A stretch of 64,000 nucleotides of DNA from Azadirachta indica. Its lineage: Eukaryota; Streptophyta; Magnoliopsida; Sapindales; Meliaceae. The translations under genes were made by a program, and so were the position numbers. The stretch is taken from positions 2,874,102 through 2,938,101 of the forward strand of contig CM040453.1 in the NCBI GenBank assembly GCA_022749755.1, given 5' to 3'. Positions 6,601 through 64,000 of the stretch are shown here, in pieces (the stretch's first letter is position 1; each line of letters begins with the position of its first letter). Under the pieces are notes generated by a model, which saw only the letters and a list, made by a program, of their open reading frames with translations, had not been told where the DNA came from and made no database searches.

Positions 6601-6788
6601 TCTGACTGGGAGCTATACGGGAATCAAATTGACCCACCCGTTATCCCAAATGTAACTATCATCTAGTTTTCTATTAAAAATATAATAAACTTAGTCGACA
6701 TTAAACAATGCTCATCTTTGCAATACCCGTCACTACCATATATTTTCTTCATCCTCTACTTCTACTTTGTTCCTAATCATTTTCTCCA
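3627..6788. other. Intergenic spacer
   Basis: The first 570 bases (to about 4200) are less AT-rich and may be remains of MTV1 intron 1; small open frames there, such as one over 3883-4200, are unlike any family known to me. From 4200 to 6700 the sequence is strongly AT-rich with short homopolymers. The last 100 bases are the leader and promoter of the RING-H2 gene. No RNA gene or complete mobile element was recognised. Confidence 0.4.
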
Positions 6789-7292
6789 ATGGCCGATGAC
6801 AACAGTTATATTGATGATTCAAAACTTAAAGTAATTCTCATAAGCGTTGGATCAGCAGCACTTGTCGTCACAGTCTACCACTGCATCGCCGTTGGCTGGT
6901 GCAACCGTCACCAGCGCAGGCCAAGCCCACCGCAACCGGGGCATTCCTTGCCAGACAACGTCGAGATGCGGAGTAGCATGGAGAACTCAACGGCCCAGCT
7001 CATTCCGGCCCATAAGTACCATAAGGGCATGGGTCTGGTGGGGGATGATGGTATGTGTGCAGTCTGTTTGTGTGAATTTGAAGAGGGTGAAGAACTACGT
7101 ACTTTGCCTGAGTGTTTGCATTCTTATCATGCACCTTGTATTGATATGTGGCTTTATTCCCACTCAAATTGCCCTATGTGTCGCACCGATGCCACCCCAT
7201 CGCTGCAAATATTTCCAAGGCCGGATTCCAGTACCGACAGGTTGGAGTCTGGTATGTTGCAAAATGTCGTCGTTCAATCTCGGACGATGTGA
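6789..7292 (+). CDS. ATL-type RING-H2 E3 ubiquitin ligase, 167 aa
   Basis: Intronless gene, typical of the ATL family of plant membrane-anchored E3 ligases that pass ubiquitin from an E2 to substrates. Residues about 12-34 are a hydrophobic segment (VILISVGSAALVVTVYHCIAV). A basic, proline-rich linker follows, then a short GMG-containing stretch before the RING. The RING-H2 finger spans about residues 96-139: CAVC, C at LPEC, H-x2-H in LHSYHAPC, the conserved W of MWL, and CPMC, so all eight zinc ligands are present. The tail after the finger is short. The ATG at 6789 has a good context (CCAATGGCC). A broken tandem copy lies 750 bases downstream. Substrate and pathway cannot be read from the sequence; many ATLs act in defence and stress signalling. 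Confidence 0.85.
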   Translation: MADDNSYIDDSKLKVILISVGSAALVVTVYHCIAVGWCNRHQRRPSPPQPGHSLPDNVEMRSSMENSTAQLIPAHKYHKGMGLVGDDGMCAVCLCEFEEGEELRTLPECLHSYHAPCIDMWLYSHSNCPMCRTDATPSLQIFPRPDSSTDRLESGMLQNVVVQSRTM

Positions 7293-9913: not shown

Positions 9914-10685
9914 TATTGGGTTGGATTTCTCCTATTTGGAGATGACCCAAATTTTCTCTTCAATAGTAACTAAGTTTAATTAACTCAAAAATATTTTAAT
10001 TTTTTCTCAAGTAGGGTTTAATATTTTTTTTTTTGCTGCAATATATATATGTGAGTTAAGAAGAGAGAGGCGGGTACTGTTCACCATCTAAAGAGAGAAA
10101 GTACAGTTCATCGTCTAGAGAGAGGCGGAACAGTAAACTTGAGACAGTTTTGATCAAGTGGCTAATTGGAGATCGATTTGTGGTCCGATTGAGCTGAAAT
10201 TTTACCAGCAGCTTCTTAACTCAGAGGAGTAAATTCTGAATGGTGGAGATCAGATTTGAGCTCCTTTTTTCCAGATTTCATGGTTGAAAGTTAGTCCACC
10301 ATTATGGTGATGTTTTTCTTGAACTCTCTCTTAATTTTTTTGTGAAACTTGATTGTTTGCCAAGATTGTGTGATCTTGAGAATATTGTGGATGTGTACCT
10401 CTAGTTCTAATTAGAGAGAAATTGTGTATTCCCATTATTTGATTATAGTGGAGTTTTTTGGATGGACTACGGTCCCGTGATTTTTACTCCTTACATTGGG
10501 GAGATTTTTCACGTTAAAATTAATTGTGTTATGATTGTTTTGTTGATGATGTAGTTGCTGTCCAAAAATTGATTTTGTGCCAAAGATTGTTACTCTATTT
10601 GTTTGTTTCCTATTAGGTTCACGCAAGAGGGGATAAGGTAATTATTATGCTTCCGCAAATTGGTTTATATTAGTTTATCCCAATA
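9914..10685 (+). repeat. 5' LTR of the copia element
   Basis: Begins TATTGGG and ends CCCAATA, a perfect 7-base terminal inverted repeat, in place of the usual TG...CA ends. Contains GAGAGAGGCGG motifs and a run of T at about 10020. Alignable over its whole length with 13252-14025. Confidence 0.88.
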
Positions 10686-10687
10686 AA

Positions 10688-10700
10688 GTAGTATCAGAGC
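10688..10700 (+). other. Primer-binding site (initiator Met tRNA type)
   Basis: GTAGTATCAGAGC lies just after the 5' LTR and matches the usual plant copia primer site TGGTATCAGAGC except for one base. Confidence 0.7.
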
Positions 10701-10732
10701 TTTGGTTATATTTATTTTGTGCCTTGTGTTGA

Positions 10733-11570
10733 ATGATGGAAGTTAATACAAGTAGAATGGTTAATTTGAATGGTGCAAATTATCACTTATGGAAGGGAAA
10801 GATGGAAGATCTTTTATATGTGAAAGATTATTATTTACCTGTGTTTGAGAAATAGAAACCCAATAATAAAACAGATGCACAATGGAAGTTGCTTCATCGT
10901 CAAGTGTGTGGGTATATCAGACAATGGGTAGATGACAATGTTTTGAACCACATCAGTGGAGAGATGCAAGTTCTTTGTGGAATAAGCTTGAAGAGTTGTA
11001 TGCCAGAAAAACCGGGAACAACAAACTATTTTTGATAAAGCAGATAATGAACTTGAAATATCGGGATGGAAAACCCATGACAGATCACTTGAATGTATTT
11101 CAGGGAATCATTAATCAGTTGGCTAGAATGAACATCAAATTTGAAGATGAAGTACAAGGGTTATGGCTTTTAGGCACATTATCGGACTCATGGGAGACAC
11201 TTAGAATGTCATTATCTAACTCAGCTCCTGATGGTATTATCACTATGGAATTGGTTAAAAATAGTGTTCTGAATGAAGAAGATAGAAGAAAGTCACAAGG
11301 TTCTTCACAGTCAGATATCTTAGTCACAGAAAAGAGGGAGAGGAGTAAGAGTAGAGGTCCGAAGAACAGAGATAAAAGTAAAAGTAAGACCAATAAGTTT
11401 GCCAATGTTGAATGCTATCATTGTGGTTTGAAGGGGCATATAAAGAAGTATTGTCGACAGCTCAAGTGAGACAACAAGAAGGATAAAGGAAAGGAAAAGA
11501 AAAATGATGACAGTAGTGATGATGACAAAGTTGCTACTGTTACAGATGACTTTCTTAGTATGTATGTATG
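10733..11570 (+). pseudogene. Copia gag, broken
   Basis: Starts ATGATGGAAGTT and gives [20 protein letters not shown], a typical copia gag opening. An in-frame TAG follows after VFEK, and a frame change is needed before WNKLEELYARKTGNNKLFLI (open from 10975). The nucleocapsid zinc knuckle CYHCGLKGHIKKYC (C-x2-C-x4-H-x4-C) is intact near 11420-11460. A TGA follows QLK, after which the old frame continues through an acidic KKDKGKEKK stretch. The protein would have packaged the element's RNA; it can no longer be made whole. Confidence 0.8.
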
Positions 11571-13234
11571 ATGATGTCAACCTTGTGTGCCATGAGACCA
11601 ACTGGGTAATTGATAGTGGTGCCTCCATTCATGCTACATCGCGAAGGGAATTTTTCACATCTTATACATCCGGTGATTTTGGAGATGTTAAGATGGGAAA
11701 TAATGGCTTAACTAAAGCCATAGGCATGGGAGATGTGTGCTTGGAGACCAATAATGGCACGATGTTACTTCTGAAAAATGTCAAGCATATTCCTAATATT
11801 CGTTTGAACTTGATTTCTACAGGTAAACTTGATGATGAGGGTTTCTCCAGCAACTTTAGTGGTGGTAAATGGAAGCTTAGCAAAGGTTCTCTGGTTGTGG
11901 CTCGAGGAAAGAAATGTTCTTCGTTGTACTTTATGCAAACAAAAATTACAGACAGCAGTATCAATATGGTAAAAAATGAAGATACAATTGAGTTATGGCA
12001 TAAAAGACTTGGTCACATGAGTGAGAAGGGTTTGAATGTTTTGGCCAAGAAGAATATGCTTTCTTGGTTGAAAAATGAATTTTTGAAGAAATGTGTTCAT
12101 TGCTTGGCAGGGAAGCAAACTAGAATTACCTTCAAGACATCTCCACCTTCAAGAAAATCAGGTATACTCGAACTAGTACACTCTGATGTTTGTGACCCTA
12201 TGAAAATAAAAACATTTGGTGATGCTCTCTATTTTGTGACTTTTATAGATGATCACTCAAGGAAGTTGTGGGTTTATACATTGAAGACAACAGATCAAGT
12301 ACTAGATGTGTTCAAACAGTTTCAGACTTCAGTTGAGAGACATACTAGGAAGAAGTTGAAGTGCATCAGAACTCATAATGGGGGTGAGCATTTTGGACCA
12401 TTTGATGAGTATTGCAGACAATTAAGAATTCGTCATCAAAAGACACCTCCGAAGACTCCTCAGTTAAATGGGTTAGCTAAAAGGATGAATAGAACACTAG
12501 TTGAAAGAGTGAGATGTTTGCTTTCACAAGCACAATTGCCAGTATCTTTTTGGGGGGAGGCTTTGAATACAGTTGTACATGTATTGAATCTTACACCGTG
12601 TGTTCCTTTAAACTTTGATGTTCCAGATAAAGTTTGGTCAGGAAAGAATGTCGCTTATAATTATTTGCGTGTTTTTGGATGTAAAACATTTGTGCATATT
12701 CCCAAAAATGGGAGGTCTAAACTTGATGTTAAGACAAGACAGTGTGTATTTCTCGGCTATGGTCAAGATGAGTTTGGTTACAGGTTTTATGATCTAGTGT
12801 AAAAGAAACTTGTAAGAAGTCGGGATGCTGTATTTATGGAAGACCAAACTATACAGGATATTGAGAAGTCAAAAGAAGCAATGGCTCAGTATAGTGATGC
12901 GTTGATAGACTTGGATCCAGTTCTTCTTACACATGTTCCAGCACAGCCTACAGATGAAGTCTTGGATGACCAACATGGTACAGATGATATTGACACTCAT
13001 ACACAGGTTAAGGTTGATGATGATATTCAGGATCAGTCATCTACTTCAGAGGTTTCACTAGATGCTCCACTCAGAAGATCTACCATAAACCGACAGCCCT
13101 CTACACAGTATCCTATAAATGAGTTTGTGTTATTAACTGAGGGGGGAGAATCTGATATGTTAACCAAGACTCTTCTGAAGGAAAAGCTTGAAGTTTGTTG
13201 TTCGATTGTTGGGTTGGCAAGTCCCTTCATATAG
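11504..13234 (+). pseudogene. Copia pol remnant: protease and integrase; RT and RNase H deleted
   Basis: The open frame 11504-12802 carries the aspartic protease core (WVIDSGASIHATS), the GAG-pre-integrase zinc domain (LWHKRLGHMSEKGL ... CVHCLAGK) and the integrase core (ELVHSDVCD, FIDDHSRKLWVY, SFWGEAL). Two catalytic integrase residues are changed: the Asp of the usual TDNGGE motif is His (CAT, 12374-12376), and the Glu of the usual NGVAERMNRT motif is Lys (AAA, 12479-12481). A TAA at about 12800 separates the chromo-like connector (12836-13234). There the reverse transcriptase and RNase H are missing and only the last RNase H residues remain. The element could move only with proteins supplied in trans. 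Confidence 0.85.
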
Positions 13235-13251
13235 TCGGAAAGGGGGAGATT

Positions 13252-14025
13252 TATTGGGTTGGATTTCCTCTTATTTAGAGATAGCTCAAATTTTCTCTTC
13301 AATAGTAACTAAGGCCAAATAACTCAAGTACATTTTAGTCTTTTCTCAAGTAGAGTTTAGTGTTTTTTTTTTGCTGCAATATATATATGTGAGTTAAGAA
13401 GAGAGAGGCGGGCACTGTTCATCATCTAGAGAGAGGCGGTTACTGTTCATCATCTAGAGAGAGGCAGAACAGTAAACTTGAGACAGTTTTGATCAAGTGG
13501 CTAAACGGAGATTGATTCGTGGTCCGATTGAGTTGGAATTTTACCAGCAGCTTCCTAACTCAAAGGAGTAAATTCTGAACGGTGGAGATCAGATTTGGAG
13601 CTCTTTTTCTTCAGATTTCATGGTTGAAAGTTAGGCCACCATTATGGTGATGTTTTTCTTAAACTCTCTCTAATTTCTTTGTGAAACTTGATTGTTTGCC
13701 AAGATTGTGTGATCTTGAAAATATTGTGGATGTGTACCTCTAGTTCTAATTAGAGAGAAATTGTGTATTCCATTATTTGATTATAGTGGAGTTTTTTGGG
13801 TGGACTACGGTCCCGTGGTTTTTACTCCTCACATTGAGGAGGTTTTTTTCCACGTTAAAATTAATTCTGTTATGATTGTTTTGTTGATGATGTGGTTGCT
13901 GTCCAAGAATTGATTTTGTGTCAAACATTGTTGCTCTATTGTTTATTTCCTATTAAATTCACACAAGAGGAGATAAGGTAATTATTGTACTTCCGCAAAT
14001 TGGTTTATATTAGTTTATTCCAACA
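13252..14025 (+). repeat. 3' LTR of the copia element
   Basis: Starts TATTGGG after the purine tract at 13239-13250 and ends TTCCAACA, followed by the right copy of the GTTAA target duplication (14026-14030). It differs from the 5' LTR at many positions, including a small duplication of the GAGAGAGGCGG motif region. Confidence 0.88.
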
Positions 14026-16600: not shown

Positions 16601-17556
16601 TGTATTTAGAAATGGTACATAACCGGTTTACCATTGAGGTGCCATCGCTGGTCACTGGCTGTTAATCTATTTTACCGAGAAAACTCTACCTATTTCAATT
16701 TGACAATTACACGACAAAGTCGAGAAAGACAATTTATGCATGCTGAAAAAGGTTAAGTAATATTAAAAGGGCTTGTTTCATTAGGCACCTACTCAGAGTC
16801 AGTAATTTTGTGAAAGGGCAATATGGTAAACTTGGAAAACAATGACACGTCACTGTTCTATTATTTGTGATCCCATGTGAGCATCCCTCAAAGGAAGAGA
16901 CCTGGCAACCAACCAAAAACTAGTGTGAGACATTTGCCGACTAATTTGCCTAGTTTGGTTACTTGTCCTTTGTGTGTTTTGATAAGCCCAATAGCCCCTA
17001 GTTTTCGAGTCATTTCAGCAAATTCACAGTGGTATATATTTTTGTTCTGTACTTGAAAACAGAACTTTGTGGTTCCAGCTTTAGAGTTTGTGTTTTCATT
17101 ATTCAATCCAAAGTATGTAAGTATTCAGTCCCCTCGCTAGAATGAGTGGTTTAGGCTCTTTTTTCATGTGGGTTTCTAGTAAAAAAAGCTCGTTAATCAT
17201 GCTTCATGATTTGGTAATGTGATCTTCAGAGAAAGATAGCTTTTTTTAGATGGTTTAAGCAGGTGTCCTTTTTGGGGTTTTGTTATTTGCAGATAAAGTT
17301 GTTTATATGCTTGTAAAAGCAGTTTGGTTCAAGAGAGAAGCAGTAAGCTTAATATTCTCTGGGTTCTCTAGTTAAAGTTGATGATTTTTAGTTCTTGCGC
17401 TTGGCTTCTGTTCAGTGAAGATCCCGATTCTGCAGTAAGTTTAAAGCTTTTCCTCCCTCTTTCTGGGTTTTAGGAATTTTGATGAAGGTTGAGCCATTTT
17501 GAGTAGCTATTGAAGTAATATTTAGTTGTTTATTGCTGTGTTTTGGGGGAAAAAAA
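16601..17556 (+). promoter_or_regulatory. Promoter and 5' leader region of the membrane-protein gene
   Basis: Less AT-rich than its surroundings from about 16700. A CAGTAAGT donor-like site at about 17430 hints at a leader intron, but no convincing acceptor could be paired. No TATA box could be assigned with confidence. Confidence 0.3.
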
Positions 17557-18498
17557 ATGAAGTCTTTGAGTAGTGTAGGACTTGGTTTGAGTGTGGTTTT
17601 TGGTTGCTTACTGTTAGCTTTGGTTGCTGAGCTTTACTACTTGTTATGGTGGAAGAAGAGAATCACTAGAAGAGATATTGAAAGTGACTACAGTAACCCA
17701 GCCAGAGAATTCCTGTACATGTTTTGTTGGAGAAGGCCATCTTCTTTGAGCGACACAGCTTTGAATCCTCAAGAACTTTGTTCTTCTGTGAGAATCACAG
17801 ATACTCTGGTTCAAGAACCACACTCTCAAAATCATTTGCACTCAAATAATAAAGATTTCTTGCTCAAGCCATTTGGTGATGATGATAGTATGGAGACAGA
17901 GCTGATGAGGCTGCATAATCTTTCAGGGCCACCAAGATTTCTCTTCACAATTATTGAAGAAACAAAGGAAGATTTGGAGTCTGAAGATGGAAAGTCTAGA
18001 TGTGATAACAAAAGCAGAAAAGGATCAAGGAGTAGAAGCTTAAGTGATCTGCTTCTCACAGTGGAAACTCCATATTTAACTCCTCTTGCTTCTCCTCCAT
18101 TTTTCACTCCTCCTCTTACTCCTATGAACTCTTCCTACAACCAACATGGATTCAATCCTCTCTTCGAATCATCAACAGATGCCGAGTTCAGTAAGATAAG
18201 GGCATCACCTCCTCGAAAGTTCAAGTTTTTACAGGATGCAGAGGAGAAACTTCACAGAAGACAGTTAAAAGAAGAAGCTGAGAAGAAATCTCATAAACCA
18301 GATGGGCTCTCTCAAGAAAATGGACTTAAAGCTCCTAGTTCAAAGTTTTCCAAAGATGAAGACGATGGTTCCTTTATCACAATCATTGTTGACAAAAACA
18401 AGGAAAAAGAGCATATAAATCAACATAACCAACTTCCACCATTTCACTCAAGTTCTTCGGTACTTCCTCTTGCTTCCTCACCTTCAACATTTTTATAA
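17557..18498 (+). CDS. Plant-specific single-pass membrane protein, 313 aa, function unknown
   Basis: Single exon. The first ATG of the frame is at 17557 in a good context (AAAATGAAG); the frame is open 24 bases further upstream but has no ATG. Residues 1-34 form an N-terminal signal-anchor (VGLGLSVVFGCLLLALVAELYYLLWW) followed by KKR, so most of the protein should face the cytosol. Next come an FLYMFCWRRPSSLS box, an acidic region, a short GPPRFLFTIIEETKEDLESEDG box, a basic serine-rich stretch (KGSRSRSLSDLL), a proline-rich TPYLTPLASPPFFTPPLTP motif, a predicted helical KFKFLQDAEEKLHRRQLKEEAEKK segment and a serine-rich tail. I recall this family from many dicots (an unnamed expressed-protein family) with no proven role. 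The arrangement suggests a phosphorylated membrane-associated adaptor, which is inference. Confidence 0.75.
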   Translation: MKSLSSVGLGLSVVFGCLLLALVAELYYLLWWKKRITRRDIESDYSNPAREFLYMFCWRRPSSLSDTALNPQELCSSVRITDTLVQEPHSQNHLHSNNKDFLLKPFGDDDSMETELMRLHNLSGPPRFLFTIIEETKEDLESEDGKSRCDNKSRKGSRSRSLSDLLLTVETPYLTPLASPPFFTPPLTPMNSSYNQHGFNPLFESSTDAEFSKIRASPPRKFKFLQDAEEKLHRRQLKEEAEKKSHKPDGLSQENGLKAPSSKFSKDEDDGSFITIIVDKNKEKEHINQHNQLPPFHSSSSVLPLASSPSTFL

Positions 18499-31418: not shown

Positions 31419-31800
31419 TATCACAGACCAGATAGAGAATAATGAATAAAGAAAATTTGCTTGCTTAGAGAAGAAGGGAAAAAAAAATAAAGGCAGATCT
31501 TGCGTTTGTGGAAAATAATCTGTGTGGTTTTCTGCAAAGCTAGGGTTGGGCGTTGTTTTATAGATGTATGGGATATTCATTCTAGAATGTTCTGTGGTCG
31601 TTGTGGAATTTTCAACCGTTGATTGGAGTGCAATGGAGGGTCTGGATTTTTCAAAAATTTTGAGTCGGATTTGTCGAGGTCGGCTACGCGCCCATGATTT
31701 TAAAAAGTGTAGGGTTTTTGAATTAGGAAAAGAGGATTGGAGGATCGGTCGGTCCAAGTCCAACGCGTCGTGCACATGTGAATCTAAAAAAAATTAGATG
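31419..31800 (-). promoter_or_regulatory. HSC70 promoter with heat-shock element and TATA box
   Basis: A perfect heat-shock element TTCTAGAATGTTC lies at 31580-31592 (three alternating 5-base units), with a further TTC unit at 31576-31578. On the minus strand a TATAAAA box is at 31562-31556, about 18 bases downstream of it. The spacing and sequence are like those upstream of the chimeric gene at 42521. Confidence 0.75.
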
Positions 31801-40262: not shown

Positions 40263-42521
40263 TCAGTTGAAGATCTGACCCAAGATAAGAGACGTGAGAA
40301 TAGTAGTTGGGTCGCCAATCAGGATACTCACAAGTATTTCGAAAAATATCTTGGCTATCTTGACAAATTTGTTGCCCTTCCATTTGTTTTTTTTCAACCG
40401 ACTCGTAATAGGCAGCTTCAGATTCTTGGGAACCAAACAATTTTTATCACTAGAATCTGCTTTTTTCCATTCTTTCAGTATCATTTCTGTGCTGCAAAAG
40501 GCATGGCACCGGTACTTCTTGCACTTAGACACATAAGACCACCCAGAGTTACCGGTTACACTGCCTTTAAGCATTTTTTTGTCGCACCAGAGGCACTCTA
40601 AATATAGTTCTTCTTTGGTAAGCTCAAATTCAACATCATCAACATTAAGCTTACTTGGAATGTTGAAACAACAGGGATGCAGAATATGGCCATTCTTCTT
40701 ACAGTGGTATACAGAGCCTTCTGCCTTTTTTGCACATACTTCACAGTATCTGTGACAATCTCTACAACGACATTTCCCAGGAAGCTTTTCTAAGAATTCG
40801 AAGGAGCAATTTTCGAACAAATCGTGTTCGGTAGTGGACTTAGGGAACATGCAGTCCGTATGTAGAGTAAAATCACACAGCTCACAACGATATATTAACC
40901 CAAAAGCTGGCCTCCTACAGCCATTGCACTTGCGGAGTGTATTGCAGTTTTTCAGCTGAAGCTCATGATCCGACCGGTGGTTAGCATGAACAGCTCTGCT
41001 GGGTAAATTTTTCCCTGTATCAGCCATCAAAATCCAAGATATAAATTAGTAAAATCCGTCGTCTAAGAACATGAAACATGAAGAACGGAGATTGAAGAGA
41101 CATTACCTGTGGTTTTGAACCCAAGAGAAATAGGGCTCAGGTCCACGATAACCAGATCCTCCACCTGCTTGCTGGGCTGACCACTCAAAATGGCAGCCTG
41201 AACTGCAGCGCCGTATGCAACAGCCTCATCTGGGTTAATTCTTTTACAGAGAGTCTTTCCGTTGAAGAAGTCCTGCAATAGCTTTTGCACTTTCGGAATT
41301 CTTGTAGAACCACCGACAAGAACGATGTCGTCGACGCTGGCCGTGTCTATCTCAGCATCCCTCAAACACTTCTTGACAAGGTCCATACACTTTTCGAAGA
41401 GATCCATGTTAAGCTGCTCGAATTTGGCACGAGTGATTTTTGAATAGAAATCAATACCCTGATACAAAGCATCGATCTCAATTGTAGTCTGAGCAGTGGA
41501 TGACAGAGCTCTCTTCGCAGTCTCACAAGCTGTTCTCAGTCTGCTCAGAGCTCTGGGATCTCCACTAATATCCTTCTTGTTCTTCGTCTTAAACTCCTGA
41601 ACAAAATGATTCATCATTCTGTTATCAAAATCCTCACCGCCGAGATGAGTGTCTCCGGCGGTGGCTTTCACCTTAAAGATGCCCTTTTCGATGGTAAGCA
41701 AAGAGACATCAAAAGTTCCACCACCTAGATCAAAAATTAACACTCTACTTTCACCAACAGTCGAAGCCTTCTTGTCAAGTCCATAAGCAAGAGCTGCGGC
41801 AGTGGGCTCGTTGATAATACGCATAATATTAAGCCCAGCAATTGCACCGGCGTCCTTGGTGGCTTGACGCTGAGACTCGTCGAAGTAAGCTGGAACAGTG
41901 ACAACTGCATTCTTTACGGTGTAGCCAAGGTAAGCTTCAGCAGTCTCACGCATCTTTTTCAGAATCTTAGAAGAGATTTCTTCAGCAGCATACCGCTTCT
42001 CTTCATCCTCGTAGTTAACCACGATGATGGGCTTGTCACCTTCACCGGCTTGGACTTTGAATGGCAAGAGCATGACATCGCTCTGAACTGATGGATCACT
42101 CAATCTCCTGCCAATCAGCCGCTTTGCATCTTCAAAAAACGAATAATTACCCCGTTAATACATACTGTTGCATAATGATATATCTGTTATTCAGGAAAAA
42201 AGAAAGAAAATCTTTCTGATAAAACTAACCAGATTCTTTATCCTTTCATCCCCTAGGAAAAAAAAATTAAGAACCCTAACGACAAAGAAAATGCAAGAAA
42301 CGTTTACCAAAAATGGTGTTCATGGGGTTCCTGACGACCTGATTCTTTGCAGCGTCACCAACCAAACACTCCGCGTCATTGAACGATACGTATGACGGCG
42401 TCGTTCTATTCCCTTGGTCGTTTACTATGATCTCCATTCGGTCATTCTCCCATACACCCACGCACGAGTACGTGGTTCCCAGATCGATCCCAATTGCCAG
42501 TCCCTCGTTATTTCCGGCCAT
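40263..42521 (-). CDS. Chimeric protein: HSP70 nucleotide-binding domain fused to DC1 zinc domains (662 aa)
   Basis: Three exons join in frame: 42521-42308 (214 bases, same size and intron position as HSC70), 42129-41107 (1023 bases) and 41014-40263 (752 bases). Residues 1 to about 412 are a full HSP70 ATPase domain with intact [22 protein letters not shown] and [13 protein letters not shown] motifs and the linker-like [13 protein letters not shown]. At FKTTG the message leaves the HSP70 sequence. The rest is DC1 (C1-like) Cys/His sequence: H...C-x2-C ([22 protein letters not shown]), [48 protein letters not shown], and a hydrophobic tail [19 protein letters not shown]. There is no substrate-binding domain, lid or EEVD. 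The family could bind ATP and J-proteins but not clients; DC1 domains bind zinc and possibly lipids. Alternative: two adjacent genes, since an ATG (41027) precedes the last acceptor. Confidence 0.75.
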
Positions 42522-42760
42522 TGTCTCTCACAAGCAGAGAAATGAAAGTAAGAAACTAATTCGTTAGAGAAAATAAAAGCAGAATAAAAATTTTTTTGGT
42601 TTGTCACTAAGAGCAAAGAATTGTTCTGTTTGGCAGTATAGTGTAAGGAAGGTGGTATGTTCTACGTATTGCTTAGGGTTTGCTTTATATTAGCAGTAGA
42701 TGGCGAGTTATTCGGGAATGTTCTGACAAAGTTATGTCAGCTATTGGTGTAGACACGTGT
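42522..42760 (-). promoter_or_regulatory. Heat-shock-type promoter of the HSP70-DC1 chimera
   Basis: Perfect heat-shock element TTCGGGAATGTTC at 42711-42723, and a minus-strand TATAAA at 42689-42684, about 22 bases nearer the gene. The layout matches the HSC70 promoter, so this copy should be heat inducible. Confidence 0.7.
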
Positions 42761-45302: not shown

Positions 45303-47492
45303 TCAGACGCTGAACAGAGACAGCACGGCAGAGGCTAGAATTCCGGTTGGATCTCCTGTTACGATACTCACAACGACTCTGAAGAAAAACTTCAATATCA
45401 TGGTATAATCGACCCCACTCCCTTTGTTCCGTCTCAACTGGGTTTTAATAGGCACCTTCAGATTCTTGGGAATCAAATAATTATTATCATTGGAATCAGC
45501 ATTTTTCCATTCATCCAGCAGCATTTGTGTGGTACAATAAGCATGGCAATTATATTTCTTGCATTTAGAAACATAAGACCACCCTGAATTGCCGGTTACA
45601 CTGCCTTTTAGCCTCTTGTCGTTGCACCAAATGCAATCTGCTGGTAATACCTCATCAGAAAGCTCAAATGTAACATAATCAATGTGTAGCTTCCTTGGAA
45701 GATTGAAACAACAGGGATGCATATTGCATCCATTCTCTTCGCAATGGTACACATAACCTTCAGTAGGTTTTACACAAGCATCGCAGTATCTTTGACAGTC
45801 TCTACAATGGCATTTTCCAGGAAGTCTGTCTAAGAACTCAAAGGTGCATTTTCTAAAGAATTCATGTTTTGCAGTGCGCTTAGGAAACATGCAGTGTGTG
45901 TGAAGATAAAAGTCTCCTCGCTCACATCGGTATATCAACCCAAACGCTGGCATCTTGCAGCCATCGCACGGGCAGAGTTTCTTATAGCTTTTTAGCTGAA
46001 GCTCATGATTCGGTTTGTGCCTAGCATTAACTGCCCTGCTTGGTAAATGTCGACCTGCATCGACCATCAAGAGAAAACATTAATTAACATATATATAACA
46101 AAATATCTTAAATCCAAGTCTACTCACATGACGCATGGATGTTACCTGTGGTTTTCAACTCACGGAACTGCGGCTTCACGTCCAAGATAATAAGATCCTT
46201 CACCTTCTTACTACGCTCACCGCTCAAGATGGCAGCCTGAACTGCAGCACCATATGCAACAGCCTCATCCGGGTCAATTCTTTTGGAAAATTTTTTTCCG
46301 TTGAAGAAGTCCTGCAATAGTTGCTGCACTTTCGGAATCCGAGTGGAGCCACCAACAAGGACAACATCATCAACACTGGTCTTGTCTATCTTAGCATCCC
46401 TCAAACACTTCTTGACAAGATTCATACACTTCTCGAAGAGATCGATATTTAGCTGCTCAAATCTGTCACGAGAGATGGTAGCATGGAAGTCTATATCCCT
46501 ATACAAAGAATCGATTTCAATTGAAGTCCGAGAAGTAGATGAGAGAGTCCTTTTTGCGTTCTCGCAAGCAGTCTTCAATCTGCTAAGAGCCCTGGTATTT
46601 CCACTAATATCTTTCTTATTCTTCCTCTTGAATTCCTGAACAAAATGCTTCACCATTCTGTTATCAAAATCCTCACCACCAAGACGAGTGTCTCCCACAC
46701 TGGCCTTCACTTTAAAGATACCATTTCCGATGGTAAGCAAAGACACATCAAAACTACCAGCACCCAGATCAAAGATCAATACAGTTTTTTTTATCACCAA
46801 ATGAAACATTCTTCTCAAGACCATATGCAATCGCTGCAGCAGTGGGCTCGCTGATTATTTGCATTACATTAAGTCCGGCCATGGCAGCCGCTTTCTTGGT
46901 CTGCTCACGCTGAGAGTCATTAAAATGAGCTGGAACAGTGATAACTGCATTCTTAACCTTTGAATGAAGGTAATCCTCAGCAATATAACGCATCTTGGTG
47001 AGTACCATGGAACTGATTTCCTCGGCAGTAAACTGCCTATCTTTACCCTTGTAGTTGACCACAATCATTGGCTTCTCATGCGGACCAGCAACGACCTTGA
47101 AGGGCCAGCGCCTTATATCTCTCTGGACTGAGGAATCACTGAATCTCCTTCCAATCAACCTCTTTGCATCTACGGTATTTGTACACAGATAACCAGTTAA
47201 TCATTATATTAGCGACAAGGAAAAAGGTCCAGTTTCTTTGACTCTTTAATAACAGGAAGCCAAAGGAAGGAAAATTACCAAATACGGTGTTCATAGGGTA
47301 TTCGTCGACCTGTTTTTTGGCCGACTTGCCAACCAAACGTTCTGTATCTGTGAACGCCACATACGACTGCGTAGTCCTGCTCCCTCGATTATTGGCTATG
47401 ATCTTCACGCTGTCGTTCTCCCATACACCGACGCATGAGTACGAAGTCCCCAGATCAATTCCGACTGCTGCTCTCTTTCCCTTTCCAGCCAT
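45303..47492 (-). pseudogene. Second HSP70 NBD-DC1 chimeric gene, with a one-base frameshift
   Basis: Same structure as the gene at 40263: exon 1 47492-47279 (214 bases), exon 2 47169-46146 (1024 bases), exon 3 46054-45303 (752 bases). The extra base in exon 2 is in a run of eight A (plus strand T8, 46785-46792), which ends the first frame at KKNCIDL; reading on in the other frame restores [16 protein letters not shown]. The ATPase part is more diverged: phosphate-2 motif DLGAGSFDV instead of DLGGGTFDV, and linker region [18 protein letters not shown]. The DC1 part is fully open with YRCERGDFYLHTHC (one Cys of the CxxC lost), CHCRDCQRYCDAC, YHCEENGCNMHPCC, ADCIWC and the tail VVSIVTGDPTGILASAVL. 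It is either a young pseudogene or a sequence error in a homopolymer. Confidence 0.7.
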
Positions 47493-55147: not shown

Positions 55148-56325
55148 ATGGTTTTCTCTTCGGTTCCTGTCTATCTAGATCCACCCAACTGGCAACAGGT
55201 AGAGTTTTCATTAATTTTCTCTTACTAATTTCTTTGTATATGTAGCTTCAGTAGCTAGCTTCTCCAATAAAGCTAATCAAAAGATAAATAATATTCCAGT
55301 CCTTTTTATATAATCTCATCTTGAATATACCACAACAACATACGTAGACATAATTTTATTATTCTTTTTTCTTTTTTTACTTTATAATTTTACAGCAACC
55401 AGGAGGCGGCAACGAGAATTCCCAGTTTCCACTACCACCGCCGCTGCCTACTATGGGTGGCGGCGGTGGTGGAGGAACTGGCTCAACCAGGCCAAATTCG
55501 ATGGCTGAGCGAGCACGACTAGCCAAAATACCACAGCCTGAAGCACCCCTAAAATGTCCAAGATGCGATTCTACAAATACCAAATTTTGTTACTTCAATA
55601 ACTACAGCCTTTCCCAGCCTCGCCACTTCTGCAAGACCTGCCGGCGATATTGGACTAGAGGAGGTGCACTGAGGAACGTGCCAGTTGGTGGTGGCTGTAG
55701 AAGAAACAAGAGAAGCAAAGGAACTAATAGATCCAAATCTCCGGCCGTAACCGACGGCCAAGCAACTGGGCCTGCCTCCTCAAATGCACTGTCTTCTAGT
55801 CGTTGCACAACTGATATAATAGGGCATTTGACAAATTCACAACCACAGATACCTCTTTTGCCTACTTTGCACCATCTTACTGATTACAATTCTGGCAATA
55901 TCGGGTTGAATTTTGGGGGAATTCAGGCGCCAAGTGTGGCAGCAGGTGGTGCTTGTAACGGCAATGAAATTGGATTTCAGGTTGGTTGTGGTTCAAGTGG
56001 TGCTGGGTCAATTTTGTCAAGTGGACTTCTTGAGCAGTGGAAGTTGCAACAGGTGCAGCAATTTCCTTTCTTGAGCGCTGGTTTGGAGCAAGGGACGGGG
56101 TTGTATTCATTTGAGAGTGAAGGTGTAGAGCCACAGGGCTATATTGGTCAGCTTCGGTCTAAGCCATCGGATTCTGGGAATACAACTGTGAAAATTGAGG
56201 AAAACCAAGCCTTACATTTGTCAAGAAATTTTTTAGGTGTTTCAGGAAATGATCAATACTGGAGCACCAATGCATGGACTGATCTTTCTGGATTCACTTC
56301 TTCTTCCACCAGCCATCTCCTATGA
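55148..56325 (+). CDS. Dof zinc-finger transcription factor, Dof5.1/Dof2.4-like (326 aa)
   Basis: Two exons: 55148-55198 ([17 protein letters not shown]) and 55396-56325, joined in phase 0. The short first exon with MVFSS...LDPPNWQQ is the hallmark of the Dof5.1/Dof2.4 clade. The Dof finger is at about residues 67-120: [20 protein letters not shown], then [20 protein letters not shown] and GGGCRRNK, a single C-x2-C-x21-C-x2-C zinc finger that binds AAAG sites. Before it is a Gly-rich loop; after it come serine- and glutamine-rich stretches and the conserved C-terminal [12 protein letters not shown] end ([18 protein letters not shown]). Dof5.1 acts in leaf axial patterning and Dof2.4 in early vascular cells in Arabidopsis; the role here is inferred from that. 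The leader is CT-rich. Confidence 0.92.
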
Positions 56326-62046: not shown

Positions 62047-62300
62047 ATGACGGCGCCACCACACTCTATGGCTTGCCGGACTACCGTTCTATTTCTCAGA
62101 GTTCTTACATTTGCTTGTCTTTTGGCGTCTCTAATTCTCCTTGTCACCAATAATATAGACTTGGATGTCGACAAATTTCGCTTCAACGATATTTATGCCT
62201 ACAGGTAACTCCAAAGTTCTTAAGTAAATAATATTATTATTAAAAATAAGATACAAATTAACGTGCATGGTACAAAAAAAGCACTTGTTACATAAAACTA

Positions 62301-62341
<41 letters not shown>

Positions 62342-62854
62342 GCTTGATACATACACCAATTATATTTATTTATTTTTTTCTGAATTTGCAGATACTTGCT
62401 TGCTACAACTGTCATTGGACTTGCCTACACATTCCTGCAAACTATTTTGTCACTGTTTTATATTAGCACTGGAAATCGCTGCATCAGCGGAGATGGAAGC
62501 TTCACAATTGAATTCTATGGCGACAAGGTCCGCACTTATAACCCTTCATCTTCCTTATAATCATACATAAAGGAGACTTTTCAACTTTTATTCTTGAAAT
62601 GAAATGTTTTTGTTTAATTCTTGACATTTTTGTTTCATTTTCAGATCGCGTCATATCTACTAGCCACAGGCGCTGCTGCAGGATTTGCGGTGACCAGTGA
62701 ATTGAAGAGATCGGGTGAAGAAGGAATACCGGACGACGTCGACAAGTTTCTGAATAGGGGATATGGAAGTGCTGCTCTCGTCCTCATCGGCTTTGTCTGT
62801 ACTGCATTGCTATCAGTTTTCTCATCCTATGCACTCCCAAGGAAAGCCAATTAA
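62047..62854 (+). CDS. CASP-like membrane protein, CASPL4D type (167 aa)
   Basis: Three exons join in frame: 62047-62204, 62392-62527, 62645-62854. The product has four hydrophobic segments: VLFLRVLTFACLLASLILLV, YLLATTVIGLAYTFLQTILSLFYI, IASYLLATGAAAGFAVTSEL and GSAALVLIGFVCTALLSVFSSY, the MARVEL-like fold of CASP/CASPL proteins. The Arg in the first helix (FLRVL) fits the family. CASPs form the Casparian-strip membrane scaffold; CASPLs are broader and their roles are mostly unknown. It resembles Arabidopsis CASPL4D1 (At2g39530), a near neighbour of the GGB gene there. ATG 62047 was chosen as the first in frame; a second ATG is eight codons on. Intron 1 has a TA microsatellite at 62308-62338. 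Confidence 0.85.
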
Positions 62855-63590: not shown

Positions 63591-64000
63591 TCACTTTCCG
63601 ATCAACTCCACGAGAAGAACGGCGAGAATTGCAGTAGGATCACCGAGAAGAATACCAATAATAGTCCTAAACACCATCTTCACCATCTTCATGAATTTGC
63701 TGCCACTCCTCCGATTGGTACTCAATCGACGATCAGTGGGAAGCTCCAAATTCTGCAAAGCCAAGCTCCTATCGTCGTTAAATGCTCCGTTTTGCCATCC
63801 ATCCAGCATCATATCCGTTGCACAGTAGACATGAAAATGATATTTTTCGCATTCTGAAACATATGACCAGCCCCTGATGCCGGATACGGTGCCTTCAAGC
63901 TTCTTCTTCTTGCACCAAATGCACTTCGACGATACCTTATCACGAAGAACAAATTTAACATTGTCGATAGACAGATTATTTGGAAGCTTGCGGCAACACG
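63591..64000 (-). CDS. DC1-domain protein, C-terminal part only (runs off the right edge)
   Basis: The minus-strand frame from the edge to the stop at 63591 encodes the end of a third DC1 protein: CCRKLPNNLSIDNVKFVLRD, CIWCKKKKLEGTVSGIRGWS, YVSECEKYHFHVYC, then a basic spacer and the hydrophobic tail GILLGDPTAILAVLLVELIG. Residue by residue it follows the last exon of the two HSP70-DC1 chimeras ([47 protein letters not shown]). It is probably another chimera or the unfused DC1 ancestor; the upstream exons lie outside the window. Confidence 0.8.
   Translation of the reverse strand, partial: CCRKLPNNLSIDNVKFVLRDKVSSKCIWCKKKKLEGTVSGIRGWSYVSECEKYHFHVYCATDMMLDGWQNGAFNDDRSLALQNLELPTDRRLSTNRRSGSKFMKMVKMVFRTIIGILLGDPTAILAVLLVELIGK

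Follow-up and report, generated by a model that had tools for sequence, protein, structure and literature searches.

We found that copy A, a gene on the minus strand of DNA from neem (Azadirachta indica), is very likely a single spliced gene, as predicted from the DNA and from homologues, that joins an HSP70 nucleotide-binding domain (NBD) to a DC1 zinc module. All positions below refer to the stretch of 64,000 nucleotides that was analyzed (the window). Sister genes in Citrus show the fusions to be a real gene family, apparently undescribed so far, and not a reading error. Taken as a whole, copy A is probably a non-canonical cytosolic HSP70 gene that would be heat-inducible and would encode a client-free ATPase tethered by its DC1 part.

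Structure and domain architecture of the fusion gene

The predicted exons and introns of copy A are as follows.

Exon 1: 42521-42308, minus strand, 214 nt; start codon and first part of the NBD (phosphate-1 loop)
Intron 1: 42307-42130, minus strand, 178 nt, GT..AG; located before DAKRLIG
Exon 2: 42129-41107, minus strand, 1023 nt; remaining NBD, linker VEDLVIVDL and the equivalent of the first strand of the substrate-binding domain (SBD-beta)
Intron 2: 41106-41015, minus strand, 92 nt, GT..AG (GTAATG...ATACAG)
Exon 3: 41014-40263, minus strand, 752 nt with the stop codon; DC1 (C1_2) Cys/His modules, a basic stretch and a hydrophobic C-terminal tail

The initial annotation had proposed that exons of 214, 1023 and 752 nt close in frame to 662 amino acids, and this was borne out: the frame is open and both introns are GT..AG. 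The spliced total is 1989 nt, that is, 662 codons plus a stop, with no internal stops. Exon 2 is symmetric (phase 1-1) because both introns follow the first base of a codon (after 214 and 1237 nt). The ordinary HSP70 gene within the window has its intron at the position of intron 1. Intron 2 contains a branch-point-like stretch, TTTTACTAAT, 30 nt from the intron end (read by eye).

The annotation also held that the NBD and linker are complete and that the SBD, lid and EEVD tail are replaced by DC1 modules and a hydrophobic tail. Pfam searches, homologues and selection all agreed with this. Residues 9-415 matched the HSP70 profile (PF00012) from position 1 to 402 of 599 (E 3.6e-179), and profile positions 403-599, which correspond to the SBD and lid, were unmatched in the Pfam search. 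Residues 428-468 matched C1_2 (PF03107; E 8.8e-08, 32.8 bits against a cut-off of 26); later Cys/His stretches of exon 3 had no Pfam match to C1_2 on their own. The linker, VEDLVIVDL (residues 394-402), is a hydrophobic segment flanked by Asp (DLVIVD). The join is at Gly413, past the linker and past the segment that corresponds to the first strand of SBD-beta, and so just after the interdomain linker as had been claimed. The best 19-residue mean hydropathy at the hydrophobic end was 1.92 (residues 639-657). Copy A ends in LGQIFN, without EEVD, whereas its ordinary neighbor ends in IEEVD.

We looked for remnants of an SBD in or near copy A. A tblastn search of the window with the ordinary SBD (E up to 0.01) matched only the ordinary HSP70 gene. 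The start of intron 2 was considered as former SBD-coding DNA and rejected: in register, 13 of 30 bases matched in copy A and 6 of 30 in copy B, which is too weak.

Many of the Cys/His positions of the DC1 part were invariant among nine aligned sequences (P0007, P0008 and copy C, described below, were left out of the alignment). Among solved structures, the DC1 exon is nearest in sequence to PDB 1v5n (E 2.2e-05), from Arabidopsis At1g60420, which we take to be nucleoredoxin. There, the DC1 domain sits in a PDI-like (thioredoxin-type) protein, in contrast to its HSP70 context in copy A. AlphaFold models were poor (mean pLDDT 52.6 for Citrus P0001 and 61.0 for the DC1 exon, the latter of low to medium confidence) and speak neither for nor against the proposed structure. 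A Foldseek search with the DC1 model gave 95 matches at E <= 10 and none at E <= 0.001; among the best 50 of the 95, C1-bearing chains led, with a PKC chain at the top (E 0.014) and 1v5n at rank 23.

Related genes in the window

The window contains a second fusion, the end of a third DC1 module and an ordinary cytosolic HSP70 gene. The tandem copies go unmentioned in the initial annotation.

Copy B: 47492-45303, minus strand; exons 47492-47279, 47169-46146 and 46054-45303; same three-exon NBD/DC1 plan as copy A
Copy B NBD frames: 46772-47170 and 46123-46776, minus strand; altered phosphate-2 loop and RIINEP
Copy C: about 63600-64000, minus strand, truncated at the window end; final 133-135 residues of a third DC1 module with its tail
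Ordinary cytosolic HSP70: 31418-31205 and 30406-28674, minus strand; 648 amino acids, ending in GPKIEEVD

The exon plan of copy B and its in-frame donor and acceptor join are those of copy A. The fusion is present twice in the window, at 60-69% identity. The frame of copy B is broken by one extra base in a run of eight A's, which could be a sequencing error. In addition, its phosphate-2 loop reads GAGS instead of GGGT, its RIINEP is changed to QIISEP, and its C1_2 score (25.7 bits) is just under the Pfam cut-off of 26. The DC1 module and tail of copy C are 42-46% identical to those of copies A and B.

The closest relative of the copy A NBD within the window is the ordinary HSP70 (80% identity, versus 69% for copy B), which could reflect slow divergence or gene conversion. 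Trees of the NBD and of the DC1 part both group copy A with copy B, with low support (0.60 and 0.79), and are compatible with a single fusion as well as with several.

The remainder of the window includes several unrelated features.

RING-H2 finger protein: 6777-7292, plus strand; N-terminal hydrophobic stretch (by eye); presumably ATL-like
Copia-type LTR element: 9926-14023, plus strand; direct repeats, separated by 3339-3341 nt, flank frames for gag (10936-11469) and for part of pol (11444-12802)
Open frame of 331 amino acids: 17503-18498, plus strand; start looks membrane-like (by eye); Pfam gave no match at E <= 0.001
Dof zinc-finger transcription factor: 55354-56325, plus strand
Apparently three-exon frame: 62048-62854, plus strand; resembles a four-helix membrane protein (by eye), presumably of the CASP-like kind

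In the two frames scanned, the Copia-type element has an integrase but nothing that matches reverse transcriptase. Neither Rfam (gathering threshold) nor a tRNA scan gave any hit in the whole window.

Fusions in Citrus and Pistacia

We searched about 5.8 billion proteins with the DC1 region of copy A (residues 400-662). There were eight matches among 650 candidates, and all were from Citrus (P0001-P0008). All eight carry precomputed HSP70 and C1_2 domains. That is, the pairing of PF00012 with PF03107, which the initial annotation could not place in or out of domain databases, is already in them. A second DC1-region search, with P0006 as query, gave nine matches among 440 candidates, one of them new (P0009, from Pistacia vera). 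A third, with P0009 as query, returned only P0009 and P0006 (2 matches among 145 candidates). No wider spread beyond Citrus and Pistacia was found in the three DC1-region searches, whose sensitivity is set by shared 5-residue words. We take Citrus to belong to the Rutaceae and Pistacia to the Anacardiaceae; both families are within the Sapindales. In a Pfam rescan of P0001-P0007 and P0009 (P0008 was left out), HSP70 was found in eight of eight and C1_2 in seven of eight. The exception was Pistacia P0009, which fell under the Pfam threshold used; its DC1 homology was seen by alignment.

The Citrus proteins P0001-P0008 have the same order of modules as copy A, with no SBD in between and with conserved Cys/His residues and tail. 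Identity to copy A is 62-69% for P0001 and P0003-P0006, of which P0005 and P0006 are incomplete. The Citrus proteins are separate paralogues; the RIINEP Arg is lost in all eight and kept in copy A. P0001-P0005 and P0008 have inserted residues at the join (of the NPNYNS type, or TTTSFAA), which copy A does not. P0001, from C. sinensis, is named 'Heat shock cognate 70 kDa protein'.

P0008, from Citrus unshiu (914 amino acids), is a merged model in which an HSP70-DC1 fusion runs on into an ordinary HSP70. Over the 260 residues of P0008 that were compared, the neem ordinary HSP70 shows 98% identity. This model suggests that a Citrus fusion copy also adjoins an ordinary HSP70, as in the neem window.

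Pistacia P0009 (heat shock cognate 70 kDa protein-like, 864 amino acids) has HSP70, a homologous DC1 module and tail, and no EEVD. Unlike copy A, it retains SBD-beta and the lid (HSP70 profile 1-589 of 599). P0009 could be a merged gene model, and the trees have weak support. Taken as it stands, it suggests that HSP70 and DC1 fused first and that the SBD would have been lost later, which is the simplest history.

Residues of the ATP site and of the J-protein contact

We compared 20 positions in the NBD and linker across 11 fusion sequences, with the sites located by motif. As several of the Citrus models are incomplete, each position was covered by between 6 and 11 of the sequences. Residue numbers are presumably those of the bovine protein (K71, E175, D199, T204). 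At 17 of the 20 positions, every fusion sequence that covers the position agrees with ordinary HSP70. K71 was kept in 7 of 7, and E175, D199 and each linker Asp in 11 of 11; T204 was kept in 10 of 11, with Ser in copy B. In contrast to these, copy A alone among the 11 has the RIINEP Arg, and the Asn is present in three of the 11 (copy A, P0003 and P0009). These counts are not independent events because Citrus contributes 8 of the 11 sequences, and six of these share 88-97% identity with each other in the NBD. As a scale, 23 of 412 NBD columns are kept in no more than a tenth of the fusion sequences.

In DnaK, R167 contacts the Asp of the J-domain HPD motif (as described in PMC8215388) and N170 contacts linker residue D393 (as described in PMC12406271). 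In our analysis, the RIINEP Arg is assigned as the equivalent of R167 and the Asn as that of N170. As judged from these residues, the fusion family retains the ATP site and, for the most part, not the contact with J-proteins; copy A has both. Residue conservation thus supports, for copy A, the proposal that the catalytic motifs are retained and that the protein could hydrolyze ATP. The companion proposal, that it could dock J-proteins, holds up in part: copy A has both the Arg and the Asn, but the Arg is gone from the other ten fusions and the Asn from eight of them, and the SBD-beta contacts are missing.

It is possible to read copy A as a client-free HSP70 whose chief role is that of a dominant-negative decoy: it would titrate J-proteins or exchange factors away from normal HSP70, with the DC1 part only a stabilizing tail. 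We consider this unlikely. The presence of the Arg and Asn in copy A fits such a role, as does HSPA13, which has no SBD and for which the authors discuss action through retained J-domain-binding sites (PMC9691929). However, with the Arg in 1 of 11 fusions, J-binding is no family trait, and the many invariant Cys/His positions would be needless in a passive tail.

Promoter and selection

Each of two genes in the window has a perfect three-unit heat-shock element upstream of its start.

Copy A heat-shock element: 42711-42723, minus strand; perfect three-unit GAACATTCCCGAA, first base at -202 from the ATG
Ordinary HSP70 heat-shock element: 31580-31592, minus strand; perfect three-unit, first base at -174, 30 nt before TATAAA

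The TATAAA of copy A starts at -168, 34 nt past the start of the heat-shock element. There are exactly two perfect TTCnnGAAnnTTC sites in the 64 kb, and these are the two listed above. This number is not above chance (1.16 expected; 31 of 100 shuffles had at least two). By our own arithmetic, the expected number of perfect sites in the 250 nt before any one start is about 0.005; it is the placement in the two promoters, and not the number of sites, that is telling. In contrast to copy A and the ordinary HSP70, copy B has no three-unit element upstream of a TATA box: its 400 upstream bases contained none at zero or one mismatch, and no TATA box by the pattern used for copy A. The perfect element of copy A favors stress induction, to the extent that this can be predicted from a promoter. 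The roles put forward in the initial annotation, as a decoy, a membrane- or lipid-directed motor or a stress sensor, are putative.

Copy A is under purifying selection. Compared with the NBD of ordinary HSP70 (411 codons), dN was 0.114 and dS was 0.891. Between copies A and B in the DC1 part (248 codons), dN was 0.250 and dS 0.899, for a dN/dS of 0.28 (0.20-0.41 by codon bootstrap, 200 resamplings); YN00 gave 0.43. Most of the amino-acid change in the NBD falls on the copy A branch because the ordinary HSP70 branch hardly changed. If dS is split equally, dN/dS on the copy A branch may be near 0.25 by our own estimate, which is looser than for ordinary HSP70. We also simulated neutral drift with copy A as the starting sequence and 0.1 substitutions per site. 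None of 1000 simulated sequences was free of stops (mean 5.9 stops); the simulations used substitutions only and ignored indels.

These results bear on a second alternative, that copy A is a decaying T1-like truncated HSP70 gene or a transcribed pseudogene and has no function. Plant truncated cytosolic HSP70s (Hsp70T) fall into two lineages, T1 and T2, according to the main text of PMC10687569. T1 genes lack EEVD, resemble full-length HSP70 and lie in tandem clusters, as does copy A, which shares the first and last of these as T1 criteria in that text. SBD-beta, however, is retained in the four described T1 subtypes (it is described as typical in T1 and atypical in T2), whereas copy A has no SBD. 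What distinguishes the T1 subtypes is the lid and the C-terminal domain; in the NBD and SBD-beta they are similar to full-length HSP70. No truncated type is described there with a DC1 or zinc module, and the main text of PMC10687569 contains no occurrence of DC1, C1 domain, zinc, Citrus, Sapindales or Pistacia.

T1 genes were hardly expressed in the four species surveyed there, which, with their tandem clustering, is in favor of this alternative. Copy B, frameshifted and without a heat-shock element, indicates that copies of the fusion can decay, and the looser constraint estimated for the copy A branch points the same way. In contrast, copy A has 662 codons without a stop or frameshift, a state that no neutral simulation preserved; dN/dS is well under 1 in both modules; and its heat-shock element and TATA box are intact. 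Decay of copy A therefore seems to us rather improbable.

One gene or two

Intron 2 contains an ATG at 41027, in the frame of the DC1 exon and 13 nt upstream of the acceptor. A DC1-frame ATG is at this same distance from the acceptor in both copy A and copy B (MADTG... and MVDAG...). This may be where a once independent DC1 gene had its start codon. The same ATG is one support for a reading of copy A as two adjacent genes or products: a truncated, NBD-only HSP70 that ends in intron 2, and a separate DC1 protein that starts at 41027. Intron 2 is short (92 nt), so it might plausibly be retained, and the product would then be an NBD-only protein that stops at 41063. However, from the stop of the HSP70 frame at 41063 to the ATG at 41027 there are 35 nt, with no obvious space for a terminator and a promoter. 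In addition, the donor, the acceptor and the clean in-frame join are preserved in copies A and B, and the join is at the same place in Citrus gene models from four species or hybrids (these models are predictions). We regard two genes as quite improbable, and a single spliced gene as very likely.

An assembly artefact that joined unrelated sequences, for which the possible sequencing error in the A run of copy B is the one point in favor, can be dismissed, as can a chance frame: the fusion recurs in copy B and in Citrus assemblies.

Discussion

NBD-SBD allostery is usually taken as defining an HSP70. Our results indicate that the fusions keep the NBD and the linker and have a zinc module where the client half would be. 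Two systems are informative for what such a protein might do. The NBD of DnaK with its linker and without the SBD has ATPase activity about 40-fold above that of the NBD alone (as described in PMC12406271 and PMC8215388). Copy A resembles a natural version of this linker-bearing construct, DnaK(1-393), extended by DC1, and because of this resemblance a fast, client-insensitive ATPase would be expected. HSPA13 (STCH), an ER HSP70 of Eumetazoa with an NBD 39% identical to that of HSPA1A, also has an HSP70 NBD and no SBD, and its ATPase is not stimulated by peptide; its description in PMC9691929 does not include a zinc module, whereas copy A has DC1. For plant DC1 domains, binding of diacylglycerol is described as unclear in PMC13033517.

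Within these limits, we propose the following. Probably within the Sapindales, a tandem HSP70 gene would have fused with an adjacent DC1 gene, with loss of the SBD after the fusion and then tandem duplication. Judging from its promoter, copy A would be made upon heat or proteotoxic stress through a heat-shock factor (HSF) site. The protein would bind and hydrolyze ATP free of control by clients. Since the linker is present and no SBD would draw it out, it would stay in the crevice of the NBD, which would make the ATPase fast and uncoupled. Through the DC1 module and tail, the nucleotide-cycling NBD might be tethered to a partner or a membrane. There, it could tune local HSP70 action through nucleotide-exchange factors and, in the case of copy A, also through J-proteins, and it would hold no client.

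We found no description of an HSP70-DC1 fusion in the titles and abstract openings among the literature matches listed, a set that lies largely outside subscription journals. Likewise, the word HSP70 is absent from the main texts of two papers on DC1 families (PMC10707348 and PMC13033517).

As a broader and more tentative notion, which we hold to be possible and no better than that, the fusions may be a class specific to the Sapindales: heat-induced, client-free HSP70 ATPases in which DC1 and a tail replace the client clamp and bring a fast, constitutively linker-docked NBD to a chosen partner or membrane. Most members would be uncoupled from J-proteins as well, and the class would have evolved stepwise through a Pistacia-like stage.

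For Citrus genomics, some of the fusions are named plainly as 'heat shock (cognate) 70 kDa protein' and could be miscounted as chaperones. The cluster in neem, in which one intact and one broken fusion accompany an ordinary HSP70 and a third DC1 module, together with the possible intermediate in Pistacia, may trace the steps by which one domain replaced another. A family that is under selection and has the ATP machine and linker, with a zinc module for the client half, is a natural test of what a lone NBD does in cells, parallel to HSPA13 in animals. If the notion of a Sapindales class is true, it would provide a natural HSP70 motor that has been uncoupled from clients and reused as a regulator.
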